From the NCBI RefSeq assembly GCF_000331305.1, contig NZ_KB217478.1, positions 2,260,151 through 2,324,150 of the forward strand: a stretch of 64,000 bases of DNA. Reading direction: 5' to 3'. Of this stretch, positions 27,885 to 64,000 are shown in pieces (the stretch's first letter is position 1; the number at the start of each line of letters is the position of its first letter). The notes beneath the pieces are model-generated. The model did not search any database, had not been told where the DNA came from, and saw only the letters and a list, made by a program, of their open reading frames with translations. Source of the stretch: Calothrix sp. PCC 7103. Lineage in GTDB: Bacteria; Cyanobacteriota; Cyanobacteriia; Cyanobacteriales; Nostocaceae. The position numbers and the translations under genes are program-made.

Positions 27885-28631
27885 TTATTTGCGACATACA
27901 AAGTAGACTGCACCAGTTTGTTCAGGCTCTATCAAATCACATTTAATATTGTAATAATTCACTTCGGTGAAACCCACTTTCTTGAGTGCAAATATCACTT
28001 CTTCTCTTAAATAACCTTTTACTAACCAAGCATTATCTAAACGTTGCCAATTGTTATTGAACAATTGGAATGTAGTAATGTTGATTGTACCTATTTTTTC
28101 TTCTGAGTTGTAATGACGTTTTAATGCCCAAGCATAATCTTCTTTAACATCACCTTCCATCGAATTGTTCCAACTTCCCCGATAATATTCATCTAACCTT
28201 AAATCAAACATGAACAAGCCTTTTGGTAAAAGTGCAGTATAGGAGTTTTTAAAAACACATATTAAATCTTCTAAATTGGTGACATGATTGAGACTATAGT
28301 CTGTTGAAACAACTCCATGAAATGTAGATGGCAACTGAAAGTAGCGTGCATCATCAAGAATAAATTTACCATCAGGAGCATTTTCATGGGCATAGCGTAA
28401 AAGTTCTACTGAGCTATCAAGTCCAGTTACTTGATAACTCTTTTGAAGAAACTTTTTTGCAAGATGTCCTGCACCACAACAAAGGTCAAGAATATGTGCT
28501 TTTTCAGGAATATTTTTTAGTAGCAATTCTTCGACATCAGGAAACAATAGCTGACTAACTTGCGGTCCCCAGTATTCATTCACTATTCGTGCAAATGTAT
28601 TATATTCTGAATAGTAATTTGCTATAGACAT
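27885..28631 (-). CDS. Class I SAM-dependent methyltransferase, last gene of the NRPS operon
   Basis: The 248-residue protein shows the Rossmann SAM motif ILDLCCGAGHLAKKF (about residues 46-60), the acidic loop VTGLDSSVELLRYA, ILDDARYF and the post-motif FHGVVSTDYSLNHV. The C-terminal half (WNNSMEGDVKEDYAWALKRHY, and a beta-sheet region) matches Mtf-like small-molecule N- or O-methyltransferases. It begins 41 bases after the aminotransferase gene on the same strand. It may methylate the newly formed terminal amine or a Dab amine, but target and position cannot be deduced from sequence. Confidence 0.85.
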   Translation of the reverse strand: MSIANYYSEYNTFARIVNEYWGPQVSQLLFPDVEELLLKNIPEKAHILDLCCGAGHLAKKFLQKSYQVTGLDSSVELLRYAHENAPDGKFILDDARYFQLPSTFHGVVSTDYSLNHVTNLEDLICVFKNSYTALLPKGLFMFDLRLDEYYRGSWNNSMEGDVKEDYAWALKRHYNSEEKIGTINITTFQLFNNNWQRLDNAWLVKGYLREEVIFALKKVGFTEVNYYNIKCDLIEPEQTGAVYFVCRK

Positions 28632-28672
28632 AATGTATTTTCTCCTAGTTTAAATATTTTAAAAAAATTTAC

Positions 28673-30076
28673 TTAATAACTTGCTAACAAGCCAGCTTCT
28701 TTAAGTTCTTCTATGCTATCTTGAACAGCAAAAATTATTCGTTCAATATCTTTATCTGTATGAGCAGTAGATAAAAAACCACCATTACCTCGTAACATAA
28801 TTCCTCTGTAAAGTAGATGATAATATAACAAATCAAAAACTATTACAGAAGATTCTCCTTCTGTAAAATTATTCCCCATCGAAGTCGAACCAAATATAGA
28901 GCCAAAATGCGCCATTTCAATGGGCAATTTTTCTTTTTTAAAATAAAAATTTAGGGTTTTTACAAACTGTAATGTTTGTTGATTTAGCTGCTCTTGCAAA
29001 GTATTACCTTGAGCTTTTAAATACTGAAGAACAGCTTTGGCAGAAGCGATAGCTAACGGATGTTTACAAAACGTCCCCGCAAAAAATGTTTTTTTCTCTT
29101 GAGCATAGGATGCATCTCCATAATTCCAAAGTCCACCATCGATTGCATTCATATACTTAGCTTTACCAGCAATCACACCAATCGGCATACCACCTCCAAC
29201 TATCTTTCCATAGGTTGCAATGTCAGCCTCAATGCCAAACCAAGCTTGTGCGCCACCCGGATGAATTCTAAAACCAGTAACCATTTCATCAAAGATTAAT
29301 GTAATTCCTGATTCTATGGTTAATTGCCTTAATTCCTGAAGAAAAAGTTGAGGTTGCAAATCAAGTCTTCTGCTTTGCACTGGTTCCACTAAAACAGCTG
29401 CTAATTCTTGAGCATAGTATTTTATCAACTCTAAAGATTCAGGATTCCCATAATCTAAAACTAAAACATCTTTCACAACATCTTGTGTTATTCCTGGTGC
29501 AATCGCTACTGTTTGTAAATTTCCATTTATCATTACTGTTGTAGCTAATGTGCCGTCGTAATGCCCATGATATGAACCAGAAAATAAAGCTATTTTGTGA
29601 CGTTTTGTAGCTGTTCTGGCCAAACGAATCGCTGCCATTACTGCTTCTGTGCCTGTATTGCTAAAGGCTACCCGTTCCATGCCTGTAAATTCACAAATTA
29701 ACTCGGCAACCTCACCTACAAATTCCGCTTGGGGACCAATTTGTATACCTTGCTCAAGTTGGGCTGCTAAAGCTTCTTTCAGAAACGACGGATTATGACC
29801 GAATAAATTCACGCCATATCCCATCGTAACATCTATGTATTCGTTGCCATCGACATCCCATATTTTGGAGCCAAGAGAACTTGTCGCAACAATAGGATAA
29901 AACATCTCCTTAAGGGTAATATTAAAATCAACAAAGGATTTGTTATCAGCTAGGAATGGGCGGTTAGTTTGGGCAAGTTTCTTTGATTTTTTTGTTCGCT
30001 GGTTGTAACGTTGAATAAATGATTGTAAATGCTGCTGGTATGAAATTAAGTGTTTTGTGCTTGGGTTCGTTTGCAT
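28673..30076 (-). CDS. Class III PLP-dependent aminotransferase (aldehyde to amine)
   Basis: The 467-residue enzyme resembles glutamate-1-semialdehyde aminotransferases and the myxochelin enzyme MxcL. Visible signatures are WDVDGNEYIDVTMGYGVNLFGHNP, AFSNTGTEAVMAAIRLAR (phosphate cup), SGSYHGHYDG, LIFDEMVTGFRIHPGG (cofactor-binding Asp) and the Schiff-base lysine in ATYGKIVGGGMPIG. The start at 30076 (MQTNPSTKHLIS) avoids overlap with the upstream NRPS, whereas the frame could extend to 30169. The preceding gene ends in a thioester reductase, so the natural substrate is the peptide aldehyde, giving a primary amine at the C-terminus. Confidence 0.9.
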   Translation of the reverse strand: MQTNPSTKHLISYQQHLQSFIQRYNQRTKKSKKLAQTNRPFLADNKSFVDFNITLKEMFYPIVATSSLGSKIWDVDGNEYIDVTMGYGVNLFGHNPSFLKEALAAQLEQGIQIGPQAEFVGEVAELICEFTGMERVAFSNTGTEAVMAAIRLARTATKRHKIALFSGSYHGHYDGTLATTVMINGNLQTVAIAPGITQDVVKDVLVLDYGNPESLELIKYYAQELAAVLVEPVQSRRLDLQPQLFLQELRQLTIESGITLIFDEMVTGFRIHPGGAQAWFGIEADIATYGKIVGGGMPIGVIAGKAKYMNAIDGGLWNYGDASYAQEKKTFFAGTFCKHPLAIASAKAVLQYLKAQGNTLQEQLNQQTLQFVKTLNFYFKKEKLPIEMAHFGSIFGSTSMGNNFTEGESSVIVFDLLYYHLLYRGIMLRGNGGFLSTAHTDKDIERIIFAVQDSIEELKEAGLLASY

Positions 30077-30125
30077 TGGATGAAATAATTGGATTAAATA
30101 ATTGGATAAAATCAATTGTGAAAAA

Positions 30126-33100
30126 TTAATAATACATCTCATTTTGTTGTGGTTTTGGTAAAAAACCACTGCGAATTAAGTATGAGAAGTAAGTACTTAA
30201 TAATTTACTATCAACTGCTGGGCAGGTAATAGCAGTTCCTGCTAATGCAGAAAGGGTATTTTGACAGTCAATTTGGTACGTTGCCGAAGATTCATTATTA
30301 GCTTGATTGGATTCGCTACTAGAAAAAATTCCTACTAATGGATACAAGGCATTGTCAGGCGAACTCTCCGCAGAATCAAGTAGTTCTGCACGCCACTGTT
30401 GGTAAGAAATTTGACGTAAATGATAGCCAAAAGAGCAAATCGAACTGACAAGTTTGTTCCAGTGCATGGGCTGAGGGTTGGCAATGTGGAAAACTTTACC
30501 TAACGATGCTTTTTGCTGCGATAAATACACTATGGCTTGACTGGCATAGTCTACAGGTGTTAGATTCACCATTGCGTTATCGTTGGGGACACTTCCAAGC
30601 TGGATGCAACCGCGAATCATTCTAAAAGTATGGTCATCGGTATTACAGACACCTGTAATACTATGTCCTGAGATACGTCCTGGTCGATAAATAGATATGG
30701 GAACGCCACGATCACCTGCAATTGTCACTAACTTTTCGGCAACCCATTTACTTTGGGTGTAACCACCAGTAATTCCTTCTCCACTTTGAAGACTATCTAC
30801 TTCCTCAACTACCTGTAATCCAGAAACCGCAGCAACGCCAATGGTAGAAATAAAGTTTAAATACTTGAGCTTAATCTGTGTCGCTAGTCGCAGTACTTCT
30901 TGAGTCCCTAATACATTTGCTGCTTTAAGCGCAGAATAAGGATAAGTAAAATTAACTACTGCTCCATTGTGATAGATGACATCTATTTGACTAGCTAAGG
31001 AACGAAATTGGTGTTCTGACAATCCCAATAGTGGTTGAGATAAATCTCCGACTATTGGAATAATGCGTTGGCTGAAACTTTCATTCCAAAGTAAGTAAGA
31101 TTTTAAGCTGTTTTGCAACCTCTGTTTAGCATCGGCAATTGTTTTAGTACGTACTAAACAGTAAATATTTGCTGGCGTTTGTTGTAGTAGTTCGTGAAGT
31201 AAAAAGACTCCCAAAAACCCAGTTGCACCAGTCAAGAAAATAGAATTAGCTTGGCTCTGTCCTTCTATAAACACATTAGTTGTAGGACTAATTGCCGAAT
31301 CTAAGACAGCTTCTGCATTAAGATCGAGAAGATTTACTGCATTAGTTACCCTAGTATTTGCACTCTGTTTGCTCTCAATGCTTTTAGCCAGGTCGGCAAT
31401 GGTTGGAGTATCAAAAAATTCCCGCAAGGGCAGTTCTACTTGGAAAGTTTTTCGTACTTTGGCAAGTAGCTGAGTAATAAGTAGGGAATGTCCACCTAAT
31501 TCAAAAAAGTTATCGTGGATACCCACTTGTCCTAAAGCTAAGAGGTTTGTCCAAATTTCAGCTAACTGTTTTTCTAATGGGGTGCGTGGTGCTATGTAGG
31601 TTTGTTTTAACTCAGAGCGGGTGTGTTCGAGCGCTAGCAAGGCTTGACAATCTATTTTCCCGTTGGGTGTCAATGGCAACGTTTTTAATAACACAAAAGC
31701 TGAGGGCAGCATATACTCAGGTAGCTTTTGTAAACAGATACTGCGTAGTTCGCTGATAAGTGCGGAGTGAAGATTTTGGTTAGTGACTTGGAATTTAGAG
31801 TTGGTAACTACATATGCTACCAAGCGCTTATTACCAAGTGCTTCCTCTGTTGCCAAGACTACAACATCCTGCAAGGTTGGATGTTTCCGCAGGGTAGCTT
31901 CAATTTCTCCCAATTCGATCCGGAAGCCACGAATTTTGACTTGGTTGTCTACTCTCCCTATAAATTCGAGGTTTCCGTCTGGTAAGTAGCGAGCTAAATC
32001 CCCAGTTTTGTATAGTCGTGCTTCAGGTGTAAAAGGGTTTTGAATAAACCGCTCAGATGTAAGTTCAGGCCGATTGAGATAGCCCCTGCTTAAGGGCGCC
32101 CCACCTATGTAAAGTTCACCTGGTAAGCCTACGGGAACGGGACGTAGCTGCTTATCTAGTACGTAAACCTGGGTATTAGCTAAGGGTTTTCCTAAAGGTA
32201 CTATGTGTGAATTACTGCTAGGTTTTTGCAGAGGAACTTGGTAAGTTAGCACGCCTACAGTTGTTTCAGTTGGACCATAGTGGTTAAAAATCTGACACTT
32301 CGGCGCCTGTAGCTGAATTTTCTCGATCAAATCCCAACTGCTAGCTTCCCCACCCAAAATTAAGCATTGGCGAGGCAGGATAGATTGGGGTGGTGAAGAT
32401 GCGATTAGAGCAGCAAGGTGAGAGGGAACTATTTTTAAGCAGTCAATGGGATGTTGTCCAAAGTAATTTGCTAGTGCTTGCGGATCGGATGCTTGTTCTT
32501 GAGATAAGATATGTAGGCATCCACCGTTACACAAAGCAGAAAATATGACTGTGTTACCCAAGTCTGCTGCAAAGGTGGAAACTATGGCAAAGTTACTGCC
32601 TGCTGGCAAGTTTATTACATCTAAAATTCCATATAAATAATTCAGGAGTTGCTGATGCTCAACGGCTACTGCTTTGGGTTTACCTGTAGAACCAGAGGTA
32701 AAAATTGCATAAACCAAGTTTTCAGGTTTCACCAAGGTTTGAGGATTTGTCTGATTTTCCTGGGCAATAACTTCCCAATCTGTGTCTAAGCAGACTATTT
32801 GCACAGTAGTTTCAGGAAGTTGTTTGATTAGTGACTGTTGTGTTAATAGGATAGATACTTGGGCATCTTGCAACCGAAAGTCTAATCCCTGTGGGGGTAA
32901 CGCTGAATCTAATGGTAGGTAAGCTGCACCAGCTTTGAGAATAGCAAGAATAGCAATAATGCTTAGGTGCGAGCGCTCTAAATAAATACCTACTAATGTT
33001 TCTGTTCTAACTCCTAATTTTTGCAGGTAGTGAGCTAATTGATTAGCCTGAGTGTTAATCTGGGTGTAGGTTAATTGTTGTCCAAATACAACAGCGATGT

Positions 33101-34532
33101 TGTACGGTGTCTTTTCTACCTGCGCCTCAAACAGGTGATGGATACACTTGTCTTTTGGGTAATTGCTATGAGTATTGTTATATTCAACTAATAATTGTTG
33201 AAGTTGGCGCTCGCTAGTAATTTCTAACTCACTGACTGTCAATTCAGGGTTTTCGACAGCACTTTTGAGCAAAGTTTGAAATTGTTCTGCCAGACACTTA
33301 ATAGCTTCCTTAGCGATTAGTTCTGGAATGTAGCGAAACTCAACTGCAAGCGATTCTTGTTTTTGCACGCACGTAAGCTTGACTTTAAATGGCTCAAGGC
33401 AGACATCTAACTTATCAATTGCAAACGAAACTTCACCAGCTTGATACTTGTCAGGTATTTCCTCAAACTCAAAATTAATAGGTAATTTGGCAGCAGCACC
33501 TACAGTTTTAATATTTTCTTCCCCAAGGAAATATTCTTGCCATGTTTCATGTTTAGATAAAGTCTCAATAATCTGCAATAAAACTTCAGTAAATCTTAAA
33601 CTATCATGAAAAATACAGCGGACTGGGAGCCATTGTGCCAACACTCCCAGCACTTCATGTAGTTCTTCATATTTCCTACCGCTTAAGACTGTGTTAACAA
33701 TAATTTCCGATTGCCCTGTAATTTTCCAAAGTAGAGTTTGCCAACAGGTAAGCAAAAAATTGGCAATTGTAGTGTTACATTGAACAGCTTTAACTTTTAG
33801 TTCATTAAATATTGGTGTTTCCAGTTCAAAAGCATGTACATTGTCAATAAATTTTATTTCTTCACTTATTTCTCTACTTATTTCTTCACTAACTTTACAT
33901 TCAAATGGCAGCGTTATTAATGATGCTTTGTGTAAGTTTTGCTGTTGCCAGTAACCTTTTCCACTGTTGGCATTTTTATCCTCTAATATTTCATTTTGCC
34001 ATTCTGAAAACTGAATATACTGTACTGGTTCTTCATGATTTAAAGATTTTGCATATGCATTTTTTAGTTCTTGGATAAGATTTTTCAAAGACCAGCTATC
34101 TGCCCATAGTGATGGCACGTTCAAAAATATAATATATTCATTTTCTGCTAAATTTACTAATGACGCACGTAAATATAGCTTTTGTTCAAAATCAAAAATA
34201 AAGTTTTTTTCTGTTTGGATTATTTCATTAAGTTTTTTGGTTTTATTTTGAGGTTTTATATTATTTAAATCAAAACAATACCATCTAATATTGCCGTTTA
34301 TAGATATTGATTGAATAGGAATTTTTATCCCCAGTTGTCTCAAAAAGTTAGTGCGAAGAACTTCGTGTCTATTGACGACTTGCCACAAAGCCGCTTCAAG
34401 AATTTTTACATTGAGTTTACCTTCAATTAAAACAGCACATTGACTTTTAGAAACAAAACCACTTTTTTGTAACAACCAAAGACGCTTTTGTTGCGGAGAT
34501 AGTCGAAAACCCTCTATAGTTTGATTTAACAT
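30126..34532 (-). CDS. NRPS: interface (C-like)-A(Asp)-PCP-thioester reductase, terminal module
   Basis: The 1468-residue protein starts with a condensation-like domain (residues about 5-430) whose active-site motif is VPSLWADSW instead of HHxxxDG. This is the type called an interface domain in beta-hydroxyaspartate siderophore synthetases. The adenylation domain (about 455-945) has FTSGSTGKPK, NHYGPTETT and YKTGDLARYLPDG. The specificity positions read D-L-T-K-I-G-H-V-G, the aspartate code. The carrier serine is in FFELGGHSLL. The C-terminal reductase (about 1075-1460) has GATGFLGVFLLHEL and the YxxxK pair GGYTQSK. Release is therefore reductive, giving an aldehyde. There is no thioesterase. 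Confidence 0.93.
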   Translation of the reverse strand: MLNQTIEGFRLSPQQKRLWLLQKSGFVSKSQCAVLIEGKLNVKILEAALWQVVNRHEVLRTNFLRQLGIKIPIQSISINGNIRWYCFDLNNIKPQNKTKKLNEIIQTEKNFIFDFEQKLYLRASLVNLAENEYIIFLNVPSLWADSWSLKNLIQELKNAYAKSLNHEEPVQYIQFSEWQNEILEDKNANSGKGYWQQQNLHKASLITLPFECKVSEEISREISEEIKFIDNVHAFELETPIFNELKVKAVQCNTTIANFLLTCWQTLLWKITGQSEIIVNTVLSGRKYEELHEVLGVLAQWLPVRCIFHDSLRFTEVLLQIIETLSKHETWQEYFLGEENIKTVGAAAKLPINFEFEEIPDKYQAGEVSFAIDKLDVCLEPFKVKLTCVQKQESLAVEFRYIPELIAKEAIKCLAEQFQTLLKSAVENPELTVSELEITSERQLQQLLVEYNNTHSNYPKDKCIHHLFEAQVEKTPYNIAVVFGQQLTYTQINTQANQLAHYLQKLGVRTETLVGIYLERSHLSIIAILAILKAGAAYLPLDSALPPQGLDFRLQDAQVSILLTQQSLIKQLPETTVQIVCLDTDWEVIAQENQTNPQTLVKPENLVYAIFTSGSTGKPKAVAVEHQQLLNYLYGILDVINLPAGSNFAIVSTFAADLGNTVIFSALCNGGCLHILSQEQASDPQALANYFGQHPIDCLKIVPSHLAALIASSPPQSILPRQCLILGGEASSWDLIEKIQLQAPKCQIFNHYGPTETTVGVLTYQVPLQKPSSNSHIVPLGKPLANTQVYVLDKQLRPVPVGLPGELYIGGAPLSRGYLNRPELTSERFIQNPFTPEARLYKTGDLARYLPDGNLEFIGRVDNQVKIRGFRIELGEIEATLRKHPTLQDVVVLATEEALGNKRLVAYVVTNSKFQVTNQNLHSALISELRSICLQKLPEYMLPSAFVLLKTLPLTPNGKIDCQALLALEHTRSELKQTYIAPRTPLEKQLAEIWTNLLALGQVGIHDNFFELGGHSLLITQLLAKVRKTFQVELPLREFFDTPTIADLAKSIESKQSANTRVTNAVNLLDLNAEAVLDSAISPTTNVFIEGQSQANSIFLTGATGFLGVFLLHELLQQTPANIYCLVRTKTIADAKQRLQNSLKSYLLWNESFSQRIIPIVGDLSQPLLGLSEHQFRSLASQIDVIYHNGAVVNFTYPYSALKAANVLGTQEVLRLATQIKLKYLNFISTIGVAAVSGLQVVEEVDSLQSGEGITGGYTQSKWVAEKLVTIAGDRGVPISIYRPGRISGHSITGVCNTDDHTFRMIRGCIQLGSVPNDNAMVNLTPVDYASQAIVYLSQQKASLGKVFHIANPQPMHWNKLVSSICSFGYHLRQISYQQWRAELLDSAESSPDNALYPLVGIFSSSESNQANNESSATYQIDCQNTLSALAGTAITCPAVDSKLLSTYFSYLIRSGFLPKPQQNEMYY

Positions 34533-34569
34533 AATATATAACCCATTCTACCAAGATTTCATTCAAAAG

Positions 34570-37500
34570 TTATTGCATCTGAATCATTTCACCCATTGCC
34601 ACTACAATCTTACGCGATCCTAAATAAGGATTACGTCCATGAGCAGTCAACATATTGTCGAGCATTAATATATCTCCCTGTTGCCAAGGGAAACTGATTG
34701 TAGCTTTTTGATAAACTGCTGTAATTTCTTCAATTGCTGAGTCTTCAATCGGAGAGCCATCACCATAATAAACATGACGCGGCAGATTTTCTTCGCCAAA
34801 CATTGATAAAAGTGATGCTCTAACAGTAGGCGCCAAGCATAAAATATGATGCAGTTGTAGTTGATTAAAAAATACTGTTTCTCCAGTTCGTGGATGCTTG
34901 GTCACTGCTGAACGGACTAAGCGGGTCTTCAAGCCATTATTTTCTAGCCATTCATATTCAATAGCAGCCTGACGGCAATAATTCTCAACAACTTTTTTGT
35001 CAGTAGTGCGGAAAAATTCTTGCCAGTTTACATCTAAACCTTCAATATAATTACGAACATACATTAATTGTTTTTGCTCAAATTTTTCTTGCAATTTAGG
35101 GTTGAGCATCTGATATACCTTCCGGCAGTCAACAATTGGAGTTTCTCCACCTTGCTGTGCTGGTTGGACGCAAAAGAACCAAATTTTTAGGGGCCACTGA
35201 TGCAAGTGAGAACTTTCATTGTGGAAGAGAATAGCTTGGTCGGAAGGATAAGGAGTAGAACTATAAACTTTACCACTGATTCCTTCTCTAGGTAAATCCC
35301 CATATTCGCCAAATAATTTTGGGCACATCGTTTGAGCGAAGTTTTCAAATTCAGCGACTAAGTTGATGTTAAAACCTCGAAATAGAATTGCACCATGTTT
35401 GAGAAGTTTTGCTTCAATAAATTCCCGGTTATTTTTTGCCCATTCGACAAGCTCTAACTCATCAACATTCGGTTGTATGACTAAGGGTATTGTATCTGCA
35501 TGTAAATAATCTGTTTTAATTAACTGCCCTTGTGGCAGAATCACTGCTTTAGGCTTAATAGATTTAAACTTTTTAAAGTTAGATGTTTCGCGTTGTTTTT
35601 GGGCAATCATTTGCTCTCTTTTTTCAACTTCAGTGAGTATTTCTAAAGAATTTATTCTGGTATCAGGCTGCGCGACAACACTGCTAGCCAAGGTTTGAAA
35701 ATGGCTAGAGATGCAGTTGATGGTTGTAGGATGGAAAAGTTCTGTATTGTACTTCCAAACACCAATAATTCCCTGCTCTGTTTCTTCCATAAATAAAGCC
35801 AAATTAAACTTTGACTTTTCGATGTTAACTTCCAAAGGAGTAAGAGTAAGGTCTGAAAATTCTAATGCCGACATTGGAGCATTTTGGAGGACAAACAACA
35901 CCTGGAATAGGGGTGTGTAGCTTGAAGTGCGATCAGGCTGTAAAACTTCTACTAACTTGGCAAAAGGTAAGTCTTGGTGTGCATAAGCCCCTAGAGTGAC
36001 TTCACGCACTCGTCCTAACAATTCTTGAAAAGTGGGGTTGCCAGATAAATCAGTACGTAAAACCAGTAGGTTGACAAAAAAGCCAATTAATGGTTCGATT
36101 TCGGCTCGATTGCGGTTGGCGACATCGGTGCCAACTACAATGTCATCCTGATTTGTATATCGGTATAAGAGTGTTTGAAAAATAGCCAGTAGGGTCATAA
36201 ACAATGTGACTCCCTCCTGACGACTGAGTTTTTTGAGATGTTCAGATAAATTAGGGGAGAGTACGAAGGATTGATGTGTTGTCTCTGTTTTGGCAGTACA
36301 TGAGGAGTTGATTGCTATCTTATGTAAATCCAAACTCGTGGGAGCGTTTGTTAGTTGTTTTTGCCAGTAAGACAGTTGGGTTTCTAGTGTTTTCCCTTCT
36401 AGCCATTGTCGCTGCCAGTAAGCAAAATCAGTATATTGGATAGAAAGTTCTGGTAAGGGTGAAGGTTTTTCTTGCGAAAAAGCTTCGTAGAGCATAACTA
36501 TTTCTTTTGTGAGTATCCCACCAGACCAGCCATCAAAAATAATATGGTGTATTGTCAGGAGTAAAATATGCTCTGTTGCGCTTAATTTCAACAGCTTTAC
36601 TCGTAACAAAAATCCTTTTGCCAAGTTAAAAGGTTGCTCGACTTCCTGATCTAAAAGCCGCAACACTTCCGCTTCTCGCTCATTTTCTGGAAATGCTTGC
36701 AAATCTAGCACAGGTAGCTCTAAGGTTAAAGCTGGGCAAATCTCACAACTTGGTTGCCCGTCTTTGGCTGGAAAGTTGGTTCGCAATACTTCGTGACGCT
36801 TGATGATTTCGTTGAGACTCTGCTTTAATGCCACAATGTTAAGCAAACCTGTAATTCTTACAGCGTGGAAATGATTATAAGCAGTGTTGTTTGGTTCCAA
36901 CTGGTCAATGAACCATAACCGTTGTTGAGCAAAGGACAACGGCTCCTTTCCATTCCGTGGAATAGGTACTATAGGCAGTGACTGTAAATTCTCCTGTGAC
37001 TGTTTTAGCGTTTCCACAGATTTTGCTAAGGTTGCCACAGTGGGAAAGTCAAAAATATTACGCAAAGGTAGTTCTATATGGAATACATTCCGCAGTTTGG
37101 AAATAACCAAAGTTGCCAATAAAGAATGTCCTCCAAGGTCAAAAAAGTTGTCATTAATACCTACTTGCTCAACACCAAGCACCTGCGACCAAATACCAGC
37201 AATCATTTCCTCAATAGGTGTGCGAGGTGAGACATAGTTAGACTGGGGATTTTGTTGTGACCAGTCTGGTACTGGCAACGCGCGACGGTTGACTTTGCCA
37301 TTGGGTAATAGGGGTAGTGCCTCCAACTGTACAAAAGCTGAAGGTATCATGTGTTCGGGTAGCCCGGTTTGCAGTAAATTTCGCAATTCTTTTGCTAATT
37401 CGCTGCTATTTTCACTATTCGCTGTTGATAAAACTACATAACCTACCAAGCGCTTATCACCAGAACTATCCTCTTTAACTACCACTATAGTTTCCCGTAC

Positions 37501-44100: not shown

Positions 44101-44412
44101 TTGTTGCTCTTGCCCAGCCAAGTCACTCAAATTAAATTCAGTAATAGAAATTTCAGAAGTATCAGCTATTACTTGTAATGGTAATGTCATTCCAGGAAAA
44201 CAACAAAAAGTAGTACGAAGAATCTCGTACTGATTGATAATGTTTTGTAATGCTGTTTTTAAAACCTCAATTTTCAGTTTTCCTAAGATTAAAACTGCAC
44301 TTTGAACATGATAAGGTGATATATTTGGACGAAGAAATGTGTTCTGTTGTAACAGCCATATGTGTTTTTGTTGGGGAGATAATGTAAATCCTTCAATTTT
44401 TTCTTTTTGCAT
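41119..44412 (-). CDS. NRPS: interface (C-like)-A(Asp)-PCP with E-domain scar
   Basis: The 1097-residue protein parallels the terminal synthetase. The first domain (about residues 5-425) has NLSALIADSF in place of HHxxxDG, so it is an interface-type domain expected to recruit the beta-hydroxylase encoded just upstream. The adenylation domain (about 450-945) has FTSGSTGKPKG and FNHYGPTETTVGV, with specificity code D-L-T-K-I-G-H-V-G for aspartate. The carrier is FFEVGGDSILSIRI, the LGGDS form that normally precedes an epimerization domain. Instead only a scar of such a domain remains (PQMPVQHQL), followed by a C-terminal docking tail DFPQANLSQKDLDMFLTKLN. Confidence 0.93.
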   Translation of the reverse strand: MQKEKIEGFTLSPQQKHIWLLQQNTFLRPNISPYHVQSAVLILGKLKIEVLKTALQNIINQYEILRTTFCCFPGMTLPLQVIADTSEISITEFNLSDLAGQEQQTRIELLFTELRKTSFHLDSHPPIQAYVITLSPEKYILILNLSALIADSFTLKLLLNKISSSYSACLEGQDLSDEPMQYADIAEWQNEILSQSELGKEYWRQQNVSLINNFNFWFEKKQLETSEFEPQYISSNLNDNLFNKIELLTQTYQVNKSDFLLVCWLILLWKITRQSDICIGISGDGRKYEELEQALGALSKYLPIFFNLQAGLKFSEILKQVNELGNNAYEWQEYFTWEEIEKSETCPILFEFEEYLETTSVADLSFSLYKHYSCIDKFKIKLTCLHHENKALMFEFHFDSNLYNIQDIKTLSEQFQILVEDAINHPEAAIGQLNILNERELQKLLVEFNNTLVDYSQDKCIHQLFEEQVERTPNQIAVVFEQQELTYTDLNARANQLAHHLRQQGVGSEVVVALYIERSLELVIGLLGILKAGGAYIPLDTAYPKERLALILADAKVPVLLTQQQLVNTLPEHTTQVICLDTNGDVIARHCQENPDSSVSPKNLAYILFTSGSTGKPKGVAVEHRQLCNYLKAIAQAIDISVCTSFAHISTFAADLGNTIIFPSLCTGGCLHIISQERISNPEALADYFERHPIDCLKIVPSHLSALLTAAHPEQILPRLRLILGGETCSWKLIEQIQQLTTECRIFNHYGPTETTVGVLTYPIEPGQTKNSDTVPIGRPISNTQIYLLDCYLQPVPIGVPGELYISGAGVARGYLNQLDLTNEKFISNPFTKTGRLYKTGDLARYLPDGNIEFLGRIDQQVKIRGFRIELGEIEVALQQHPAVRETVVMSHTEQTGNKRLVAYVVPEKQSAPSNSELREFLQQKLPKYMVPSVFIHLKAWPFLPNGKINRQALPIPDLNSELAETFVAPRTQVEETLVSIWAEILELPQVGIYDNFFEVGGDSILSIRIVAKANQAGLQLTPKQMFEHQTIAELAAVVQVNQEDRVTAQIPQMPVQHQLTKAENYTSNDFPQANLSQKDLDMFLTKLNQKNENRKH

Positions 44413-54432: not shown

Positions 54433-54498
54433 ATTATTCCTCTACACTTTGTATTGATATTAAGTATACTCCTCACCTGCCCAGCGTGGGTGGGGTAA

Positions 54499-55899: not shown

Positions 55900-58800
55900 T
55901 TGCTTTTATTATCACTTGTTAGATTCATTTTGGTGAGAAACTTATCTAATTTTTGTTGACTCAAATTAGCTTTAGGAAAGTCGGAAGGCGTATATTTTTG
56001 TGTTTCGAGAGATAGACAATGAGCAATCAGAGCTTGTAGTGCTGCAATAAAATTACCAGCTAAAGTTTCAATTGTTTCTCGGCGGTGAATACCCTGACTG
56101 TATGTCCAATTAAATTGAAATTGCTCGTTAACAACAATTACATTGACTTCTAGCAAGTAAATTCGGCTTGTATGCTGATTATCCGAAGAATCACTCACCT
56201 CTCGCTCTAAATGAAATAGAGATGGTTCCGAAATCTTTTGCTCAAAAAGACTAAAGTAATTAAAGCTCACTTCCGGCTGAAATTTCGATTGTGCTTCTTG
56301 ATTAGTGCTAGAATCACGCAGCATACCATAGCTAATACTCTTATTTGCAATCTGACGAAGTTTCTCTTTTACTGCTATTAAAGCATTTTCTGAATGAGCA
56401 GCACCTGTTATGTCTAAGTGTAGTGGGACGCGAGTTGTAAACCCACCCACTGTGTGGGAAAGGTTAACATCTTTGAAAATTTTTTCTCGGACATTACCTT
56501 TCATATCTACCCATAGTGTTTGTTCTCCTGTCCACTTTGCAAAAGCTTGCACTAATGCTGTGAGTAAAAGATGATTTATCTGAGTATTATAAGCTTTGTG
56601 TACATCCTTGAGTAGGGCTTGCGTTTCTTTTTTATCTAGATAAAATGATACGACATCAGCATCTATGACTCTGTTTTCTCCTCTCAAATAATCGACTGGC
56701 AAACTCTGGAACGGTTTTTGTATTTCAGCTAACCAGTATTCATATTCTTTTTGAGCCTCGGCAGATTGCGAATAAGCTTGTAAATATTGTAACCATGTTT
56801 GAAATGAAGTAGTTTTATCTGGTAAATGTATTGCTTTGCCCTGACTGATTTGCTGATAAGCTGTTTGCAAGTCTTCGAGCAAAATTCGCCAAGAGATATC
56901 ATCAACTACCAGTGTCACAGTAATTAAGAGGTAGCTTGTTTTTTGCGCTCCCAAATCAAAGAAAGTAACCTGTACAAGTGGTTCTTGAGATAAATGTAAA
57001 CTTGTTTGTTGTTGTACAATCGCTGACTCAATAGCTAATTTTTGCGCTTGTTCCGGTAGCTCCGACAAATCCACTCGTTTAAATACCATTATATCATTGG
57101 CAGTAGCCTGAGTTGGTTGCCAGCTAGATTCCTGCTGAATAAAACGCAGTTGAAATACATCATGGTACTCAAGCAAATGCTGTATAACCTGCTCCAACAA
57201 ATTAGGATTATATATTTGCCGCATTTCCAGTAGTAAAGACTGGTTTGAGTTATTCTGTGCCAAAAACCAATCCTTAATAGGTGTTTGGATAGTTTGAGGT
57301 ACGTATGCAGCTGTTGCCAATTCGGCAATTGTTTTATGTTGAAACAACTGTCGAGGTGTCAAATTAAGACCAGCTTGGTTCGCTTTAGCAATAACCTGAA
57401 TGGCAATAATGGAATCTCCTCCTAACTCAAAGAAATTGTCGTGAACACCGACTTTATCAATGCCAAGCACTTCTACCCATGTTCGAGCTAAAATTTCTTC
57501 TACTGGGGTGGAAGGAGGCACAAAACTTGATTCTATTAGCTGTATCCGGTCGGGAACTGGCAATGCTTGACGGTCTAGCTTCCCATTCGGTGTCAAGGGT
57601 AGAGTCTCTAAAATTACAAAAGCCGTTGGCGCCATATAGTTCGGCAACTTTGACTTTAAAAAGCGGCGTAGTTCGGAAATAGTAAGTGTTTGTTCTGGAT
57701 GGAAAGTTATGTATGCTACTAAATTTTTCTTTTCTGCTACATCCTCTCGAACAATAACCACACTTGCAAATATTGCTGGGTGTTGGTTTAGTACCGCTTC
57801 AATCTCACCAATTTCAATACGGAAACCTCGTACTTTTACTTGGTCATCAATTCTTCCAAGATATTCTATATTTCCATCTGGTAAATAACGTGCTAAGTCG
57901 CCAGTTTTATATAAACGCTCGCCAGAGATGTTGGTAAAGGGGTTAGGAATAAATTTTTTAGCAGTTAAATCAGGACGATTAAGATACTCCCTGGCTATAC
58001 CAGCACCTCCTATATACATTTCTCCACAAACCCCAATACTTACTGGTTGCATTTGAGCATCTAGCAAAAAACACTGTGTGTTTGCGATTGGGCGACCAAT
58101 GGTTACAATACTGTCCCCTTTGTTAATCAGGGCGTAGGTTGAATAAGTTGTGCTTTCAGAAGGACCATATAAATTATAAATTTGCTGAATAGTACTATGC
58201 TGATAAATTTGCTGCACAAGACTATTTTGGAGTGCTTCACCTGCTAAGTTAATTGTGCTGACTGAGGCTGGTATTGCTTTTATTCTCAGTAACTCAGCGA
58301 TGACTGAGGGAACCGTATTAATTAAGGTGACTTCATTTGCCGCAAGCAAATTAGGTAATGAGAGTGCATTCTCCACTAAAATTACCTTGCCACCCCAGCT
58401 TAGAGTTCCAAAAAGTTCAAAGACCGATAAATCAAAACAAATAGAAGTTGATGCCAAAACACCAGCAAGTTGTTCTGTGCTAAAGATTGTTTTTACCCAA
58501 TACAAGAAAGCAACTGTGTTACGGTGTTCTACGACAACTGCTTTCGGTTTTCCTGTAGAACCAGATGTGTAAAGAATGTAACTAGCATTTTTTGGTAAAA
58601 CCTGACTACTGAGATTTTCCTTGTTTTCGTGATTAATAATTTCCCAATCGTCGTCTAAACAGACAACTTTGGCTTTTAGCTCTGGCAGTTGAGTGAGTAA
58701 TGCAGTTTGGCTAAGTAATATTGGCGTTTGGGCATCTTGCACCATAAAAGCCAAGCGCTCTTGGGGATAATTGGGGTCTAAAGGTACGTAAGCTCCGCCA

Positions 58801-60434
58801 GCTTTGAGAATTGCTAGTAACCCTATTATCATCTCTAAAGAGCGCTCAACACAAATCCCCACTAGTTTCTCTGGTTCTACTCCCAGCTTTTGTAAGTAGT
58901 GGGCTAGTTGATTCGCTTTTTGGTTGAGTTCTCGATAAGTTAATTGCTGGTCTTTTAGCTGGTCTTTTAATATTACCGCCACAGCATCAGGTGTTTTTTC
59001 TACCTGAGCCTCAAATAGTTGATGAATGCACTGCCCTTGAGGATACGCAATTTTTGTATTATTCCACTCCACTAATAGTTGGTGTTTTTCAGCTTCTGTT
59101 AAAAGCGACAACTCCTTGAGGCATTGTTGAGGATTTGCAATCATTGCTTTGAGCAAGGTTTCAAGATGTCCCAATATTCGACAAATGGAAGCACTATCAA
59201 ACCGCTCACCTTCATTGTAGGCAATATCAAGCAACAATTCTTTACCCGGCATAACAGTCAACGTCAGAGGATAGTTAGTCCTTTCAAAGCGATGAACAAC
59301 ACTGATTTCTAGGTTTAAATCTGATTCTAGTGAGGAAATTGCTTCTATGGGGTAGTTCTCAAAAACCACAATACTCTCAAATAGAGGTTGGTCTTTGGCA
59401 ACCTCACTCCATTTTTGGATTTCTAGTAGGGGGCTATACTCGTACTGACGCGCTTCAACTTGCTGATTTTGCAGTTGCTGAAGCCAAGGTAAAAGCAACT
59501 CATCAAATGATACCTGTACTCGCGTTGGCAATGTATTAATAAACAGCCCTACCATTGAGTCAGCGCCAGTTAAGTCAAGGGGACGACCGGAAACAGTTGT
59601 TCCAAAAATTACATCATGCTGACCACTATAACGACTCAGTAGCAAAGCCCAAGCTCCTTGCACCAATGTATTCAGCGTCAGTGAATGCTGTTGAGCAAAA
59701 GACTTTAGTGCGTTTGTAGTTGCAATCGATAACCGAATTTGTTGCTGATTATAGCTTTCTTCTTGGTCGGGTAATTTGGATACCCCCAAAATTGATGTGG
59801 GAGCTTGCACATTACGTAGTTGTTCTTGCCAAAAAGCTTGTGCTGCTGACAAGTTCTGCTGTTGTAGCCAAGCAATGTAATTCCGATAGGGGTGGGGTTG
59901 TGCCAGAGAAAGGTTGTCACCCTGAGATAATTTTTTATAAGAAGCAATAACTTCTTTAAAGATTATAGATACAGACCAACCGTCTAAAAGTAGATGGTGA
60001 TGGCTCCAAATAAAGTAATAACTTGTCTTTTTTAATTTGATTAAGGTGAAGCGCATCAGTGGTGCGCGCGTAAGTTCAAAGCCTTGCTGGCGATCACTTT
60101 GCAGTAAAGTCTGGAGTTTTTCCTGTTGTTTTTCTGGAGGTATTGTTTCCCAGGAATCCTCTACCCACGGGAGTGTTATTTGGCGCCCCACCACTTGCAA
60201 TGGCTTTTCCAAATTATCCCACACAAAGGCGGTACGTAAAACTGGATGACGAGAAATTACCCATTCCCAAGCTTGGCGAAATGCTTGAGCGTTGAGTTGA
60301 CCGTGGAGTTCAAAACTTATTTGTTGGACATATACACCCGATGTTGGTGCATACAGGCTATGGAATAGTATCCCCTGCTGCATAGGGGACAAAGGATAGG
60401 CATCTTCAATATTTTTGAAGTTCATGGTGTTCAT
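55896..60434 (-). CDS. NRPS: C-A(Ala)-PCP-E (E domain active site degenerate)
   Basis: The 1512-residue protein has a condensation domain (about residues 5-440; PLSPMQQGILFHSLY, SHHHLLLDGWS) and an adenylation domain (about 460-960) with YTSGSTGKPKA, FDLSVFELF, TLINTVPSVI, NLAGEAL and NLYGPSESTTYS. The specificity positions D-L-F-N-N-A-L-T-Y match the alanine code known from microcystin synthetase. The carrier is FFELGGDSIIAIQV. An epimerization domain (about 1055-1490) follows, but its motif reads VTLVVDDISW where active domains have HHLVVDGVSW. It ends in a docking tail DFPKANLSQQKLDKFLTKMN. Alanine may therefore stay L. Confidence 0.92.
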   Translation of the reverse strand: MNTMNFKNIEDAYPLSPMQQGILFHSLYAPTSGVYVQQISFELHGQLNAQAFRQAWEWVISRHPVLRTAFVWDNLEKPLQVVGRQITLPWVEDSWETIPPEKQQEKLQTLLQSDRQQGFELTRAPLMRFTLIKLKKTSYYFIWSHHHLLLDGWSVSIIFKEVIASYKKLSQGDNLSLAQPHPYRNYIAWLQQQNLSAAQAFWQEQLRNVQAPTSILGVSKLPDQEESYNQQQIRLSIATTNALKSFAQQHSLTLNTLVQGAWALLLSRYSGQHDVIFGTTVSGRPLDLTGADSMVGLFINTLPTRVQVSFDELLLPWLQQLQNQQVEARQYEYSPLLEIQKWSEVAKDQPLFESIVVFENYPIEAISSLESDLNLEISVVHRFERTNYPLTLTVMPGKELLLDIAYNEGERFDSASICRILGHLETLLKAMIANPQQCLKELSLLTEAEKHQLLVEWNNTKIAYPQGQCIHQLFEAQVEKTPDAVAVILKDQLKDQQLTYRELNQKANQLAHYLQKLGVEPEKLVGICVERSLEMIIGLLAILKAGGAYVPLDPNYPQERLAFMVQDAQTPILLSQTALLTQLPELKAKVVCLDDDWEIINHENKENLSSQVLPKNASYILYTSGSTGKPKAVVVEHRNTVAFLYWVKTIFSTEQLAGVLASTSICFDLSVFELFGTLSWGGKVILVENALSLPNLLAANEVTLINTVPSVIAELLRIKAIPASVSTINLAGEALQNSLVQQIYQHSTIQQIYNLYGPSESTTYSTYALINKGDSIVTIGRPIANTQCFLLDAQMQPVSIGVCGEMYIGGAGIAREYLNRPDLTAKKFIPNPFTNISGERLYKTGDLARYLPDGNIEYLGRIDDQVKVRGFRIEIGEIEAVLNQHPAIFASVVIVREDVAEKKNLVAYITFHPEQTLTISELRRFLKSKLPNYMAPTAFVILETLPLTPNGKLDRQALPVPDRIQLIESSFVPPSTPVEEILARTWVEVLGIDKVGVHDNFFELGGDSIIAIQVIAKANQAGLNLTPRQLFQHKTIAELATAAYVPQTIQTPIKDWFLAQNNSNQSLLLEMRQIYNPNLLEQVIQHLLEYHDVFQLRFIQQESSWQPTQATANDIMVFKRVDLSELPEQAQKLAIESAIVQQQTSLHLSQEPLVQVTFFDLGAQKTSYLLITVTLVVDDISWRILLEDLQTAYQQISQGKAIHLPDKTTSFQTWLQYLQAYSQSAEAQKEYEYWLAEIQKPFQSLPVDYLRGENRVIDADVVSFYLDKKETQALLKDVHKAYNTQINHLLLTALVQAFAKWTGEQTLWVDMKGNVREKIFKDVNLSHTVGGFTTRVPLHLDITGAAHSENALIAVKEKLRQIANKSISYGMLRDSSTNQEAQSKFQPEVSFNYFSLFEQKISEPSLFHLEREVSDSSDNQHTSRIYLLEVNVIVVNEQFQFNWTYSQGIHRRETIETLAGNFIAALQALIAHCLSLETQKYTPSDFPKANLSQQKLDKFLTKMNLTSDNKSK

Positions 60435-60439
60435 CCCCC

Positions 60440-63400
60440 TTAAAAAGAAATTTTGCCCAAAGCTTGATTAAGTGTGTCTTGGCTCAGTTGCACCAATGGG
60501 AAATCTGAAGGGCTAACAGCACCTACATTAGGTGATTGACAGTGGTTAATAATTGCACGCAGCATTTTCACAAATTCTTCAGCCAACGCTTCAATTGTGG
60601 TACGTCGATATAAATTTTTACTGTAAGTCCAGTTTACTTGCAGATGTTTTTGGGAAATACCTGCGTTTATCTCCAACACGTGAGTCCTCAAGTTCGTCGG
60701 ATTCCGTTCCATACCCTTATACCCCGGATATAATCTAAATAAAGAAGGCTCAGGTAGAACTTGGTCGAACTGCCCTAAATAGTTGAAAATTACTTCAGGT
60801 TTGAGGTCAGGTTGTGTTTTATCAGTAATTTCACGGCTATTCTTTAAATAAAGTAATATACCGTATCCGATACCTCGTTGAGGAATATTTCGTAGTTGTT
60901 CTTTAATTGCCAGCAGGAATTCTCCACAGTCAGTCGTTTTTTCTGAATTTAATAAAACTGGAAATATCGATGTGAACCAACCCACTGTCCGCGATAAATC
61001 TAAATCGTCAAACAGTTCTTCTCGTCCATGACCTTCTAAGTCAATTAGCAGTGAGGATTGTCCTGTCCACTGGGCAAATGTTTGTACTAAAGCCGCAAGC
61101 AAAACATCATTAATCTGAGTTCGATAAGCAGCTGGTACGTCTTGTAACAAAGCTTGAGTCTCTTTCATGTCAAGGCTTACCGAAACAGTGCGAGCTTTCG
61201 CTTCGGTATTTTCTCCCCCTGGATAATCGACTGGTAGGGGTGCAACTGGTTGGTTAAGAACTTTTTGCCAGTAATCAAACTCTGAATGCAAAATTGGAGA
61301 TTGAGAATACTCTAATAGTTTTTGCGACCACTGCTTGTAGGAAGTGGTTTTAGCTGGTAACTGAATTGTTTGGCGCCGACTTAGTTGCTGATAAGCTGTT
61401 TGCAAATCTTCAACCAAGAGGCGCCAAGAAACACCATCGACAACTAAATGATGAATTACCAAAAGCAAACGACTGTAACGTTCCGCTCCTAGATCGAAGT
61501 ACGCAACCCGTAGTAAAGGAGCTTTGGATAAATTAAAACTTGCTTGAATGTCGTTTGCTGCGGTAATGATGGCAGCTTCTTGCTCTGGGTATGACAGGTT
61601 TGATAAATCTAAGCTTGTCACTGGTATATAATCATCTGGAAGAGAAATAACTGCCTTCCAGTCCATTTCATCTTGTGTAAAACTTAATCGTAGTACATCA
61701 TGATGTTGGATGAGAGAACGTACTACTTCTGCAAGTAACACAGGATCGAGCGGCTGACGCACTTCCAACAACAATGACTGGTTCCAATGATGGACATCGA
61801 GCAAATTTTGAGCAAACAACCAGTGCTGAATGGGTGTTAGCGGAACTAAGCCTGTTACTAATCCTTGTTCAGCTGCTATTTGCTTGCTCACACCAGCTAC
61901 TGCTGCTAATTGGGCAATAGTTTGGTATTGAAACATTTGCTTAGGAGTTAAATACAACCCCGCTTGCTTGGCTTTGGATATTACTTGAAGACTGAGAATA
62001 GAGTCTCCACCTAATTCAAAGAAGTTATCGTTTATACCTACTTTTTCTAATCCTAATACTTGTGTCCAAATAGCAGATAACTGTTTTTCAATGCTAGTTT
62101 CAGGGGCGGTAAAAACTGATTCTATTGGTGTTTCGCCATCTAATGTTGGTAAAGCCTGACGATTTAGCTTTCCGCTAGGGGTTAAAGGCATCGTCTCCAA
62201 AAATTTGAATACAGTAGGAACCATGTATTCTGGTAACTTCTCTTTTACAAAGCGGCGTAGATCATGACTAATACTTAAGTTCTGATTAGTATTATTAATT
62301 TCATTGTTGATATTATTATCTTCCTGCCTAGTAACTATATAAGCTACCAAGCGTTTATTTCCAGCTTTTTCTTCTCGTGCTAATACCGCAGCTTCTCGCA
62401 CAAATGGATGTTGATTTAGCGCCGCTTCTATTTCTCCAAGCTCAATACGGAATCCCCGCACCTTCACTTGGTCATCCATCCGTCCCAAAAATTCAATGGT
62501 TCCATCTGACAGATAACGAGCTAAGTCTCCTGTTTTATACAAACGCTCTGATTGTGAATTATTAGGTTTGTGATTAAATTCAATATCCTCACATTCAAAA
62601 TTAGTGAAAGGGTTGGGAATAAATTTCTCGGCTGTGAGTTCAAAATTGTGCAAATACCCTCTACCAACTCCTACACCACCAATGTACAGTTCACCTGTAA
62701 CTCCAATAGGAACGGGGTTAAAATTCCGATCCAGCAAATAAATTTGAGTATTGGCAATCGGACGACCAATGGGGACTGTCTGACGGTAAGTATTATTGGG
62801 CGAACATTTCCAGTGGGTAACATCAACCGCAGTTTCCGTTGGTCCGTATAGGTTGTATAGTTCGGCTTCTAAATGAGTAAAGAAACGTTGTTGCAGTTCT
62901 ACTGATAGCGCTTCGCCACTGCAAATCACCCGTTTGATAGATTTACAATTTTCCAAACCTTCTACTTCTAAAAATGCTTGCAGCATGGAAGGAACGAAAT
63001 GTAAGGTGGTGATTTGCTGTTGTGCAATCAAGTTGATTAAATAATTGGGGTCTTGATGTCCACCTGGTTGAGCTATTACTAAACGCGCGCCTGCCAGCAA
63101 AGTCCAGAAAAACTCCCAAACTGACACATCAAAGCTAAAAGGTGTCTTTTGCAACACACAATCTGTTGTTGTTAATTGATATGTATCTTGCATCCACAGT
63201 AAGCGATTGCAAATACCTCGGTGGGTATTCATTGCTCCCTTCGGTTTTCCCGTAGAGCCAGATGTATAAATTACATAAGCAAGGTTTTCTGGGGTGATAT
63301 TGCAAACTGGGTTTTCTAAGCTTTCGTGGGCGATTTGCTCTAAATTGGTATCCAGGCAAATTACTTCAGTGATAACAGGAAACTTCTCAACTAAGTGCTG

Positions 63401-64000
63401 TTGGGATATCAAAATTGAGATTTGAGAGTTTTGGATCATGAAAGCTAATCGCTCTTGGGGGTAGCTTGGGTCAAGAGGTAAATAGGCGCCACCAGCTTTA
63501 AGAATACCCAGAAGTGCAATTACCATATCGAGCGATCGCTCAATACAAATCCCCACTAATTTCTCTGGTTCTACTCCTCGATGTTGCAAATAGTGCGCTA
63601 ATTGATTAGCTTTTTGGTTGAGTTGTTGATAAGTTAACTGTTCGTTTTCAAACACCACAGCAACTGCATCCGGTGTTCTTTCTACTTGGGCTGCAAATAA
63701 TTGATGAATGCACTGGTCTTGAAAAAAATCTTTTCCTGTACAGTTCCAACCAACAATCAGCTGTTTTTGCTCAACATTTGTCAGCAAAGGTAATTTTGAT
63801 ATGTTTGTATCTGGGTTAGAAACAATACCTTCGAGCAAAATTTGAAAATGCCCTATCATTCGCCTAATGGTATCAGCTTTAAACAAATCGGTGTTGTACT
63901 CTATAGCACCGATTAACTCTTGTTTTGTATCCTCTAAGAACAAGGTCAAGTCAAACTTGGCAATTCCACTGTCTGTAATTAAGGGCGCCAGTTTCAAACC
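60440..64000 (-). CDS. NRPS (partial): C end-A(Ser)-PCP-E, gene continues past window
   Basis: The frame is still open at base 64000. The visible part starts inside a condensation domain (ITDSGIAKFDLTLFLEDT...YNTDLF). The adenylation domain has YTSGSTGKPKG, FSFDVSVWEFF, TTLHFVPSML, VICSGEAL and NLYGPTETAVDV. Specificity positions D-V-W-H-I-S-L-V-D give the serine code. The carrier is FFELGGDSILSLQV. The epimerization domain has an intact IHHLVVDGVSW and VIFNYLGQFDQ, so D-serine is expected. The C-terminal tail DFPLVQLSQDTLNQALGKI is a donor docking peptide for the next protein, whose gene starts 5 bases downstream. Confidence 0.92.
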   Translation of the reverse strand, partial: GLKLAPLITDSGIAKFDLTLFLEDTKQELIGAIEYNTDLFKADTIRRMIGHFQILLEGIVSNPDTNISKLPLLTNVEQKQLIVGWNCTGKDFFQDQCIHQLFAAQVERTPDAVAVVFENEQLTYQQLNQKANQLAHYLQHRGVEPEKLVGICIERSLDMVIALLGILKAGGAYLPLDPSYPQERLAFMIQNSQISILISQQHLVEKFPVITEVICLDTNLEQIAHESLENPVCNITPENLAYVIYTSGSTGKPKGAMNTHRGICNRLLWMQDTYQLTTTDCVLQKTPFSFDVSVWEFFWTLLAGARLVIAQPGGHQDPNYLINLIAQQQITTLHFVPSMLQAFLEVEGLENCKSIKRVICSGEALSVELQQRFFTHLEAELYNLYGPTETAVDVTHWKCSPNNTYRQTVPIGRPIANTQIYLLDRNFNPVPIGVTGELYIGGVGVGRGYLHNFELTAEKFIPNPFTNFECEDIEFNHKPNNSQSERLYKTGDLARYLSDGTIEFLGRMDDQVKVRGFRIELGEIEAALNQHPFVREAAVLAREEKAGNKRLVAYIVTRQEDNNINNEINNTNQNLSISHDLRRFVKEKLPEYMVPTVFKFLETMPLTPSGKLNRQALPTLDGETPIESVFTAPETSIEKQLSAIWTQVLGLEKVGINDNFFELGGDSILSLQVISKAKQAGLYLTPKQMFQYQTIAQLAAVAGVSKQIAAEQGLVTGLVPLTPIQHWLFAQNLLDVHHWNQSLLLEVRQPLDPVLLAEVVRSLIQHHDVLRLSFTQDEMDWKAVISLPDDYIPVTSLDLSNLSYPEQEAAIITAANDIQASFNLSKAPLLRVAYFDLGAERYSRLLLVIHHLVVDGVSWRLLVEDLQTAYQQLSRRQTIQLPAKTTSYKQWSQKLLEYSQSPILHSEFDYWQKVLNQPVAPLPVDYPGGENTEAKARTVSVSLDMKETQALLQDVPAAYRTQINDVLLAALVQTFAQWTGQSSLLIDLEGHGREELFDDLDLSRTVGWFTSIFPVLLNSEKTTDCGEFLLAIKEQLRNIPQRGIGYGILLYLKNSREITDKTQPDLKPEVIFNYLGQFDQVLPEPSLFRLYPGYKGMERNPTNLRTHVLEINAGISQKHLQVNWTYSKNLYRRTTIEALAEEFVKMLRAIINHCQSPNVGAVSPSDFPLVQLSQDTLNQALGKISF

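Follow-up and report, generated by a model that had tools for sequence, protein, structure and literature searches.

A putative mixed-ligand siderophore gene cluster with split diaminobutyrate modules and a linked acylase in Calothrix sp. PCC 7103

The 64,000 nt stretch of Calothrix sp. PCC 7103 analysed here (the window; contig NZ_KB217478.1, G000:C7:2260151-2324150, within an 11.58 Mb genome) holds most of a nonribosomal peptide synthetase (NRPS) and polyketide synthase (PKS) line, initiated by a fatty acyl-AMP ligase (FAAL), which by its sequence probably makes a cyanochelin-type mixed-ligand siderophore (a probability of roughly 80%). The inferred backbone is acyl-Ala-[C2 unit, alpha- and beta-OH]-D-Ser-L-Ala-Dab-Gly-OHAsp-Dab-OHAsp-CH2NH2, where Dab is diaminobutyrate and OHAsp is beta-hydroxyaspartate. 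Siderophores of this kind are already known; the split Dab modules and the linked acylase are conserved features that go beyond the preliminary description of this DNA. The locus yields a full, testable structure prediction, and photolabile siderophores of phototrophs bear on iron sharing in mats and biofilms. Leaving out any methyl group or hexose, the predicted [M+H]+ is 812.3745 for the deacylated product and 994.5415, 1022.5728, 1050.6041 and 1078.6354 for products carrying C12, C14, C16 and C18 acyl chains, respectively.

Positions 27885-64000 are occupied by closely spaced NRPS and tailoring genes on the minus strand. The preliminary description placed the start of the line outside the window, and genes were indeed found up to position 78735 extended (coordinates above 64000, called extended, carry on the window numbering rightward from further fetched stretches). 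The complete line has 18 genes with intergenic gaps of -44 to +90 bases. Chance or misread frames were ruled out, because all 18 genes are free of internal stops and the gene order is kept in relatives. The genes are listed below from the start of the line, followed by the acylase, with adenylation (A), condensation (C), epimerase (E), peptidyl carrier protein (PCP), acyl carrier protein (ACP), ketosynthase (KS), acyltransferase (AT) and ketoreductase (KR) domains.

73390-78735 extended: FAAL-ACP-C-A-PCP, code DLFNNALTY (Ala), line start
72076-73377 extended: glycosyltransferase
71065-72039 extended: methyltransferase, the second of the cluster
66320-71020 extended: KS-AT-KR-ACP, with TACSTS in the KS and GHSIG and HAFH in the AT
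65226-66311 extended: MupA/Atu3671-family monooxygenase (TIGR04020, 502 bits)
60440-65233 extended (60440-64000 within the window), minus strand: C-A-PCP-E, code DVWHISLVD (Ser), E motifs HHLVVD and EGHGRE
55896-60434, minus strand: C (DCL)-A-PCP-degenerate E, code DLFNNALTY (Ala)
54499-55899, minus strand: free-standing DCL-type C domain upstream of Dab module 1, with HHIIIDG intact
53179-54432, minus strand: Dat/EctB diaminobutyrate transaminase (TIGR02407, 564 bits; TIGR00709, 448 bits; both above cut-off)
50356-53088, minus strand: half C domain-A-PCP, code DIWEMTADD (Dab), covering only positions 191-455 of 456 in PF00668
45512-50359, minus strand: TubC_N docking domain-C-A-PCP-C, code DILQLGLIW (Gly)
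44443-45495, minus strand: free-standing TauD-type Asp beta-hydroxylase (PF02668, 160 bits)
41119-44412, minus strand: interface-like C-A-PCP, code DLTKIGHVG (Asp)
39708-41138, minus strand: free-standing DCL-type C domain upstream of Dab module 2, where HHxxxDG reads HFVILDG
34570-39681, minus strand: half C domain-A-PCP-C (LCL)-TauD Asp hydroxylase, code DIWEMTADD (Dab)
30126-34532, minus strand: interface-like C (no HHxxxDG)-A-PCP-thioester reductase, code DLTKIGHVG (Asp) (TIGR01746, 394 bits, cut-off 213)
28673-30169, minus strand: class-III aminotransferase (PF00202)
27885-28631, minus strand: SAM methyltransferase (PF13649, above cut-off)
25530-27686, plus strand: Ntn-hydrolase acylase of the penicillin-amidase family (PF01804, 461.8 bits)

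Re-derivation by alignment returned all seven A-domain codes previously read in the window (7/7, as listed from Ser onward), and the residue order stands; the FAADLGNT insertion of the Asp domains was placed by MAFFT itself, making the hand-made frame shift unneeded. For calibration, the same extraction was run on the published cyanochelin B cluster of Leptolyngbya sp. NIES-3755 plasmid 2 (AP017310.1), yielding DLYNLSLIW, DAWTIAAVC, DILQLGLIW, DLTKIGHVG, DVWHFSLID, DLTKIGHVG and DILQLGLIW, where 7/7 residues published in PMC12628792 fit (Cys-thiazoline, Phe, Gly, OHAsp, Ser, OHAsp and Gly-derived ethanolamine). In particular, DLTKIGHVG occupies both OHAsp positions. The Dab assignment is supported by the cluster's own Dat, which scores above the 552-bit cut-off of the EctB/Dat model TIGR02407. 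Moreover, the line has a single intact E domain, at the Ser module. The Ala module is followed by a degenerate E-like domain that has lost HHxxxD as well as EGHGRE, so that only Ser is expected to be D; the earlier D-Ser-Ala is thus retained at Ser and amended to L-Ala.

Both Asp modules (2/2) are paired with a TauD-type beta-hydroxylase, in agreement with the two hydroxylases first proposed, one free-standing (44443-45495) and one at the C-terminus of the 34570-39681 protein, and each keeps its HxE motif. The fused enzyme shares 64% identity with its NRPS-fused counterpart in the cyanochelin B cluster, and the free-standing enzyme is 59% identical over 201 residues to that cluster's free-standing hydroxylase. 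The interface-like domains lack HHxxxDG in 24/24 of those aligned. The order C, TauD, interface-A(Asp)-PCP, one residue, C-TauD, interface-A(Asp) is kept in Microcoleus, Gloeocapsa, Cylindrospermum and others. By a rule quoted in PMC12628792 (free hydroxylase to 3R, fused hydroxylase to 3S), L-erythro would be expected for the first OHAsp, which has no E domain, and L-threo for the second; L-erythro OHAsp is reported for potashchelins. As separate observations, four proteins with the architecture C-PCP-C-TauD and no A domain match between C and PCP (L033:6926-11017, L039:6878-11053, G005:C68:34263-38354 and G084:C11:24899-28996) stand directly before an OHAsp module, and the hydroxylase/interface architecture is present on L041, a 16965-base contig of a Pyrinomonadaceae metagenome-assembled genome, by transfer or binning error.

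The lipid cap and a third iron ligand, unseen in the window, have counterparts beyond it. The line is FAAL-initiated (FAAL NF004509, two AMP-binding matches) and ends in the thioester reductase, and the previously undefined residue X is refined to acyl-Ala plus a dihydroxylated C2 unit, the dihydroxy acid being the candidate third ligand. The PKS module is a malonyl-type KS-AT-KR. In the cyanochelin B cluster, a relative (44%) of the Calothrix MupA-type monooxygenase forms part of the PKS protein, adjoining the ketoreductase. A figure legend of PMC12628792 marks a flavin monooxygenase there as 'Ox', and the cyanochelin B structure has hydroxyls at C-30 and C-32; together these support an alpha,beta-dihydroxy unit in the Calothrix product. 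In other clusters the enzymes adjoining the PKS are FkbH-type (G173 and G257) or a second TauD-like protein (G005 and G084), and it may be speculated that such oxidising or loading enzymes all serve a hydroxylated C2 unit.

Reductive release was upheld, and the proposed terminal amine is probable: the thioester reductase exceeds its cut-off, while the aminotransferase falls below that of every NCBIfam model listed. Across 12 reductase-ended clusters (Calothrix, L025, G393, G394, G395, G001, G003, G005, G084, G257, G340 and NIES-3755), an aminotransferase is nearby in eight, Calothrix included, and was not seen in G394 (at a contig end), G395, G257 and NIES-3755. A methyltransferase is found in five of the 12, standing beside the terminal module in G393, G003, G001 and G084; that of Calothrix (27885-28631) is a candidate for methylating the C-terminal amine or a hydroxyl group.

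Further, genes for siderophore transport adjoin the line. Divergent from it at the right (79677-85847 extended) are a TonB-type receptor (PF00593/PF07715), a periplasmic binding protein (PF01497), a sucrase/ferredoxin-like protein and an MFS exporter, with 42, 38, 31 and 44% identity, respectively, to their counterparts next to the cyanochelin B cluster. These genes support the siderophore function first proposed. A thioesterase and a phosphopantetheinyl transferase also lie on the right in divergent orientation. An ABC-transporter scan of the genome gave 137 matches and was uninformative for the cluster.

In the pathway predicted from these genes, the FAAL would load a fatty acid, to be joined to Ala through an amide bond, the malonyl PKS module with its ketoreductase would extend Ala, and the MupA-type flavin monooxygenase would add the alpha-OH. 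D-Ser, L-Ala, Dab, Gly, Asp, Dab and Asp would then be added in turn, with Dab supplied by the cluster's Dat and both Asp residues hydroxylated by the two TauD enzymes, held at the HH-less interface-like C domains. At each Dab, the A-linked C-lobe remnant would serve as a platform and the upstream DCL-type domain as the condensing partner. The thioester reductase would release an aldehyde that the aminotransferase converts to an amine, which the methyltransferase may methylate, and the Ntn-hydrolase may cleave the acyl chain after export. The two OHAsp residues and the dihydroxy acid would bind Fe(III), with uptake via the neighbouring TonB-type receptor and binding protein.

Both Calothrix Dab proteins start with only the C-terminal half of a C domain (half-C). 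Against solved C domains, that of the 50356-53088 protein covers only the C-terminal part (TycC residues 270-520), that of the 34570-39681 protein scores 117 bits over profile positions 182-456, and neither module contains a canonical complete C domain with HHxxxDG. The upstream partner C domain has an intact HH at Dab-1 and HF at Dab-2. When the N-terminal 260 residues of the 50356-53088 protein were searched against 386 cyanobacterial genomes, matches at E 8e-60 or better occurred in at least 10, the Calothrix genome included, with 44-50% identity in the nine others; at most six candidates were scored per genome, and half-C modules may therefore have been missed. The next-best matches (3e-30 and weaker) resemble ordinary C domains, and half-C was also present in 3 of 16 further genomes reached through loci.

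Among 16 half-C modules from 13 genomes, all have the code DIWEM[T/V/S]ADD, all are preceded by a DCL-type C domain (g8/g14 type; 12 free and four fused to the preceding module), and Dat is present in 14/14 loci. The HHxxxDG motif of these upstream domains keeps HH in five, has lost the second His in eight (seven Phe, one Met) and has Asn for the first His in three; the losses are not independent events, as G393 and G394 are close relatives. A link between HH state and the upstream residue was sought in the Dab-associated C domains and not found: the OHAsp-Dab domain has HF in Calothrix and HH in the Cyanobacterium UBA11370 and G257, and the Gly-Dab domain of UBA11370 has HF. A tree built from the C-lobes of 101 domains joins the 12 half-C domains it includes in a single clade (support 1.0), and the truncation point is identical in every case; the Dab-associated C domains fall with ordinary DCL domains (clade support 0.74, also taking in L080 4657 and L076 15900). 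In our reading, the catalytic lobe of the Dab module's own C domain was lost, and its role passed in trans to a DCL-type domain. The arrangement, kept across cyanobacterial genera, raises the question, relevant to NRPS mechanism and engineering, of whether a C domain remains functional when divided in two and when its second His is missing.

The acylase aligns its beta-chain Ser at residue 209. Its nearest solved structures are glutaryl-7-ACA/cephalosporin acylases (680 bits), with PvdQ at 230 bits, and it scores 257 bits against the NCBIfam PvdQ model NF051460, under the 950-bit cut-off, so it is not a PvdQ equivalog. The search for the acylase, at a threshold of E 1e-60, covered 27 genomes; as G402 repeats G005, 26 of them are distinct. 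The gene shares a contig with the FAAL starter or cluster in 18/26, a linkage that gives no background rate because most genomes were picked for carrying related clusters; chance linkage would be rare in genomes of 5-12 Mb. It lies elsewhere in five (G084, G393, G394, G404 and G405) and was not found at this threshold in three (G002, G004 and G407). Where a FAAL-ACP-C starter was read, the acylase is present in 17/17 genomes and on the same contig in 16/17, and the fatty acid may therefore come off after export, as in pyoverdine. In G340, the acylase and the FAAL are each split over two frames. The acylase goes with the starter, since G006 has FAAL-ACP-C-A-PCP and a PKS beside it (G006:C1:3251698-3271999) and no close OHAsp hydroxylase was found in that genome. 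G002, the sole FAAL-KS genome read and one whose acyl chain would be attached through a C-C bond, has no acylase; the plasmid stretches that carry the cyanochelin B cluster also showed none, the NIES-3755 chromosome being outside the search. Many cyanobacterial OHAsp clusters are thus suggested to use a removable fatty acid, which would make a polar peptide, not a lipopeptide, the target in extracts.

Several observations weigh against the siderophore assignment or parts of its structure. The Ala and Dab codes were assigned outside the cyanochelin B calibration, from signature tables. The Dab-2 bond would be made without a textbook catalyst, as its C domain lacks the second His and the half-C has no active-site lobe. 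The aminotransferase has best NCBIfam matches that are HemL-like and below cut-off, the match to the MxcG equivalog model (NF038078) reaches 687 of 2300 bits, the acylase is nearer to cephalosporin acylases than to PvdQ, and the glycosyltransferase and second methyltransferase (71065-73377 extended) are given no step in the predicted pathway. A Fur-like 15-mer about 45 bases upstream of the receptor (79618-79632 extended, two mismatches, matched by 1/100 shuffles) is weak, being the best of 12 tests (four regions, three patterns). The product could instead be an OHAsp lipopeptide whose main function is something other than iron binding, such as membrane activity: two Dab residues would make it cationic, and turnercyclamycin, according to PMC12971057, is a non-metallophore OHAsp lipopeptide caught by hydroxylase models. 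Such a function is improbable, however, given the divergent receptor, iron-type binding protein and MFS exporter, all of which have relatives adjoining the cyanochelin B cluster, and the presence of both OHAsp residues, as in cyanochelin B.

With the siderophore assignment preferred, its two additional features meet rivals of their own. The Dab modules may be decaying or misread, the half-C being a roleless remnant while the upstream C domain alone condenses in the ordinary way; the intact HHxxxDG in 5/16 upstream domains agrees with this, as does G340, whose first Dab module has a full ordinary C domain in place of half-C. Such decay is rather unlikely, as half-C is retained in at least nine other genomes of the 386 and forms one clade with one truncation point. 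More tentative still, and doubtful as a whole, is that the Dab cassette represents an NRPS module type of its own, in which bond formation would be split between the A(Dab)-fused remnant and a separate DCL-type domain with a dispensable His pair, the free 4-amino group of Dab would enter the chemistry (attacking first, or closing a cyclic amidine with the preceding residue), and the chelator would leave the cell deacylated; in ferribactin, a condensation takes place between the 4-amino group of Dab and the carbonyl before it (PMC6206403). For the acylase, it is nearly an even question whether the fatty acid is retained and the enzyme is a neighbour with another job, such as hydrolysis of quorum signals or foreign amides. 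Acyl-homoserine lactone acylases of the penicillin-amidase family occur in Nostoc-type cyanobacteria, the PvdQ match is under cut-off and five genomes have the gene unlinked, whereas the same-contig starters (G006 among them) and the missing acylase of G002 argue for removal. Among the matches listed from open-licence papers, by title and start of abstract, no description was found of a half-C Dab module or of an acylase in a cyanobacterial siderophore cluster.

Comparison with known systems places the Calothrix line close to, and distinct from, cyanochelin B. Both have a FAAL start, a PKS with ketoreductase and MupA-type oxygenase, a terminal reductase, the receptor, binding protein and MFS genes, and two Asp (DLTKIGHVG) modules, one residue apart, that each have an interface-like C domain and a TauD partner. 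Cyanochelin B has FAAL-KS (a C-C linked tail), Cys-thiazoline, Phe, Ser and a Gly-derived ethanolamine end in its line, and no Dab or half-C was seen in its cluster; Calothrix instead starts with an amide-linked Ala and has two split Dab modules, Dat, an aminotransferase end, the linked acylase and a glycosyltransferase. The Calothrix product is therefore not cyanochelin B itself, as its line starts with FAAL-ACP-C-A(Ala) and has no Cys code. The UBA11370 cluster (DNGI01000047.1; L026/G393) has the same Dab-Gly-OHAsp-Dab-OHAsp-reductase order, with both Dab modules split, Dat, a methyltransferase and an aminotransferase, and the two-Dab and amine pattern, which the preliminary description could not match to a known compound, is thus not unique. 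Unlike Calothrix, UBA11370 has an E domain after the first OHAsp, Gly ahead of the first Dab, another start with a Cys-like code (DLYNIGVLW) and the acylase on another contig. Pyoverdine (PvdL-PvdQ) shares an acylated precursor, Dab and an Ntn-hydrolase, and differs in that the Calothrix acylase is below the PvdQ cut-off; no pyoverdine-type chromophore genes turned up at the Calothrix cluster, no search having been aimed at them. In the myxochelin pathway, MxcG and MxcL combine C-A-PCP-reductase with a class-III aminotransferase to give an amine end, but the Calothrix match to MxcG is below cut-off and the product class is unrelated.

Beyond the transport genes, a PD-(D/E)XK family transposase (91231-92148 extended; L015:18382-19299) precedes a second NRPS line at 96497-112757 extended (L013), which comprises an MFS gene, three NRPS proteins and a reductase end. 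Its 2233-residue protein opens with an FkbH domain (no Pfam match for FkbH at 1e-3), and with its own FkbH-type start and own reductase end it was ruled out as part of the same line. Elsewhere in the genome, C-domain fragments at G000:C7:4652185-4653204 and 4666581-4667659, in short frames with some internal stops, resemble decayed NRPS genes.

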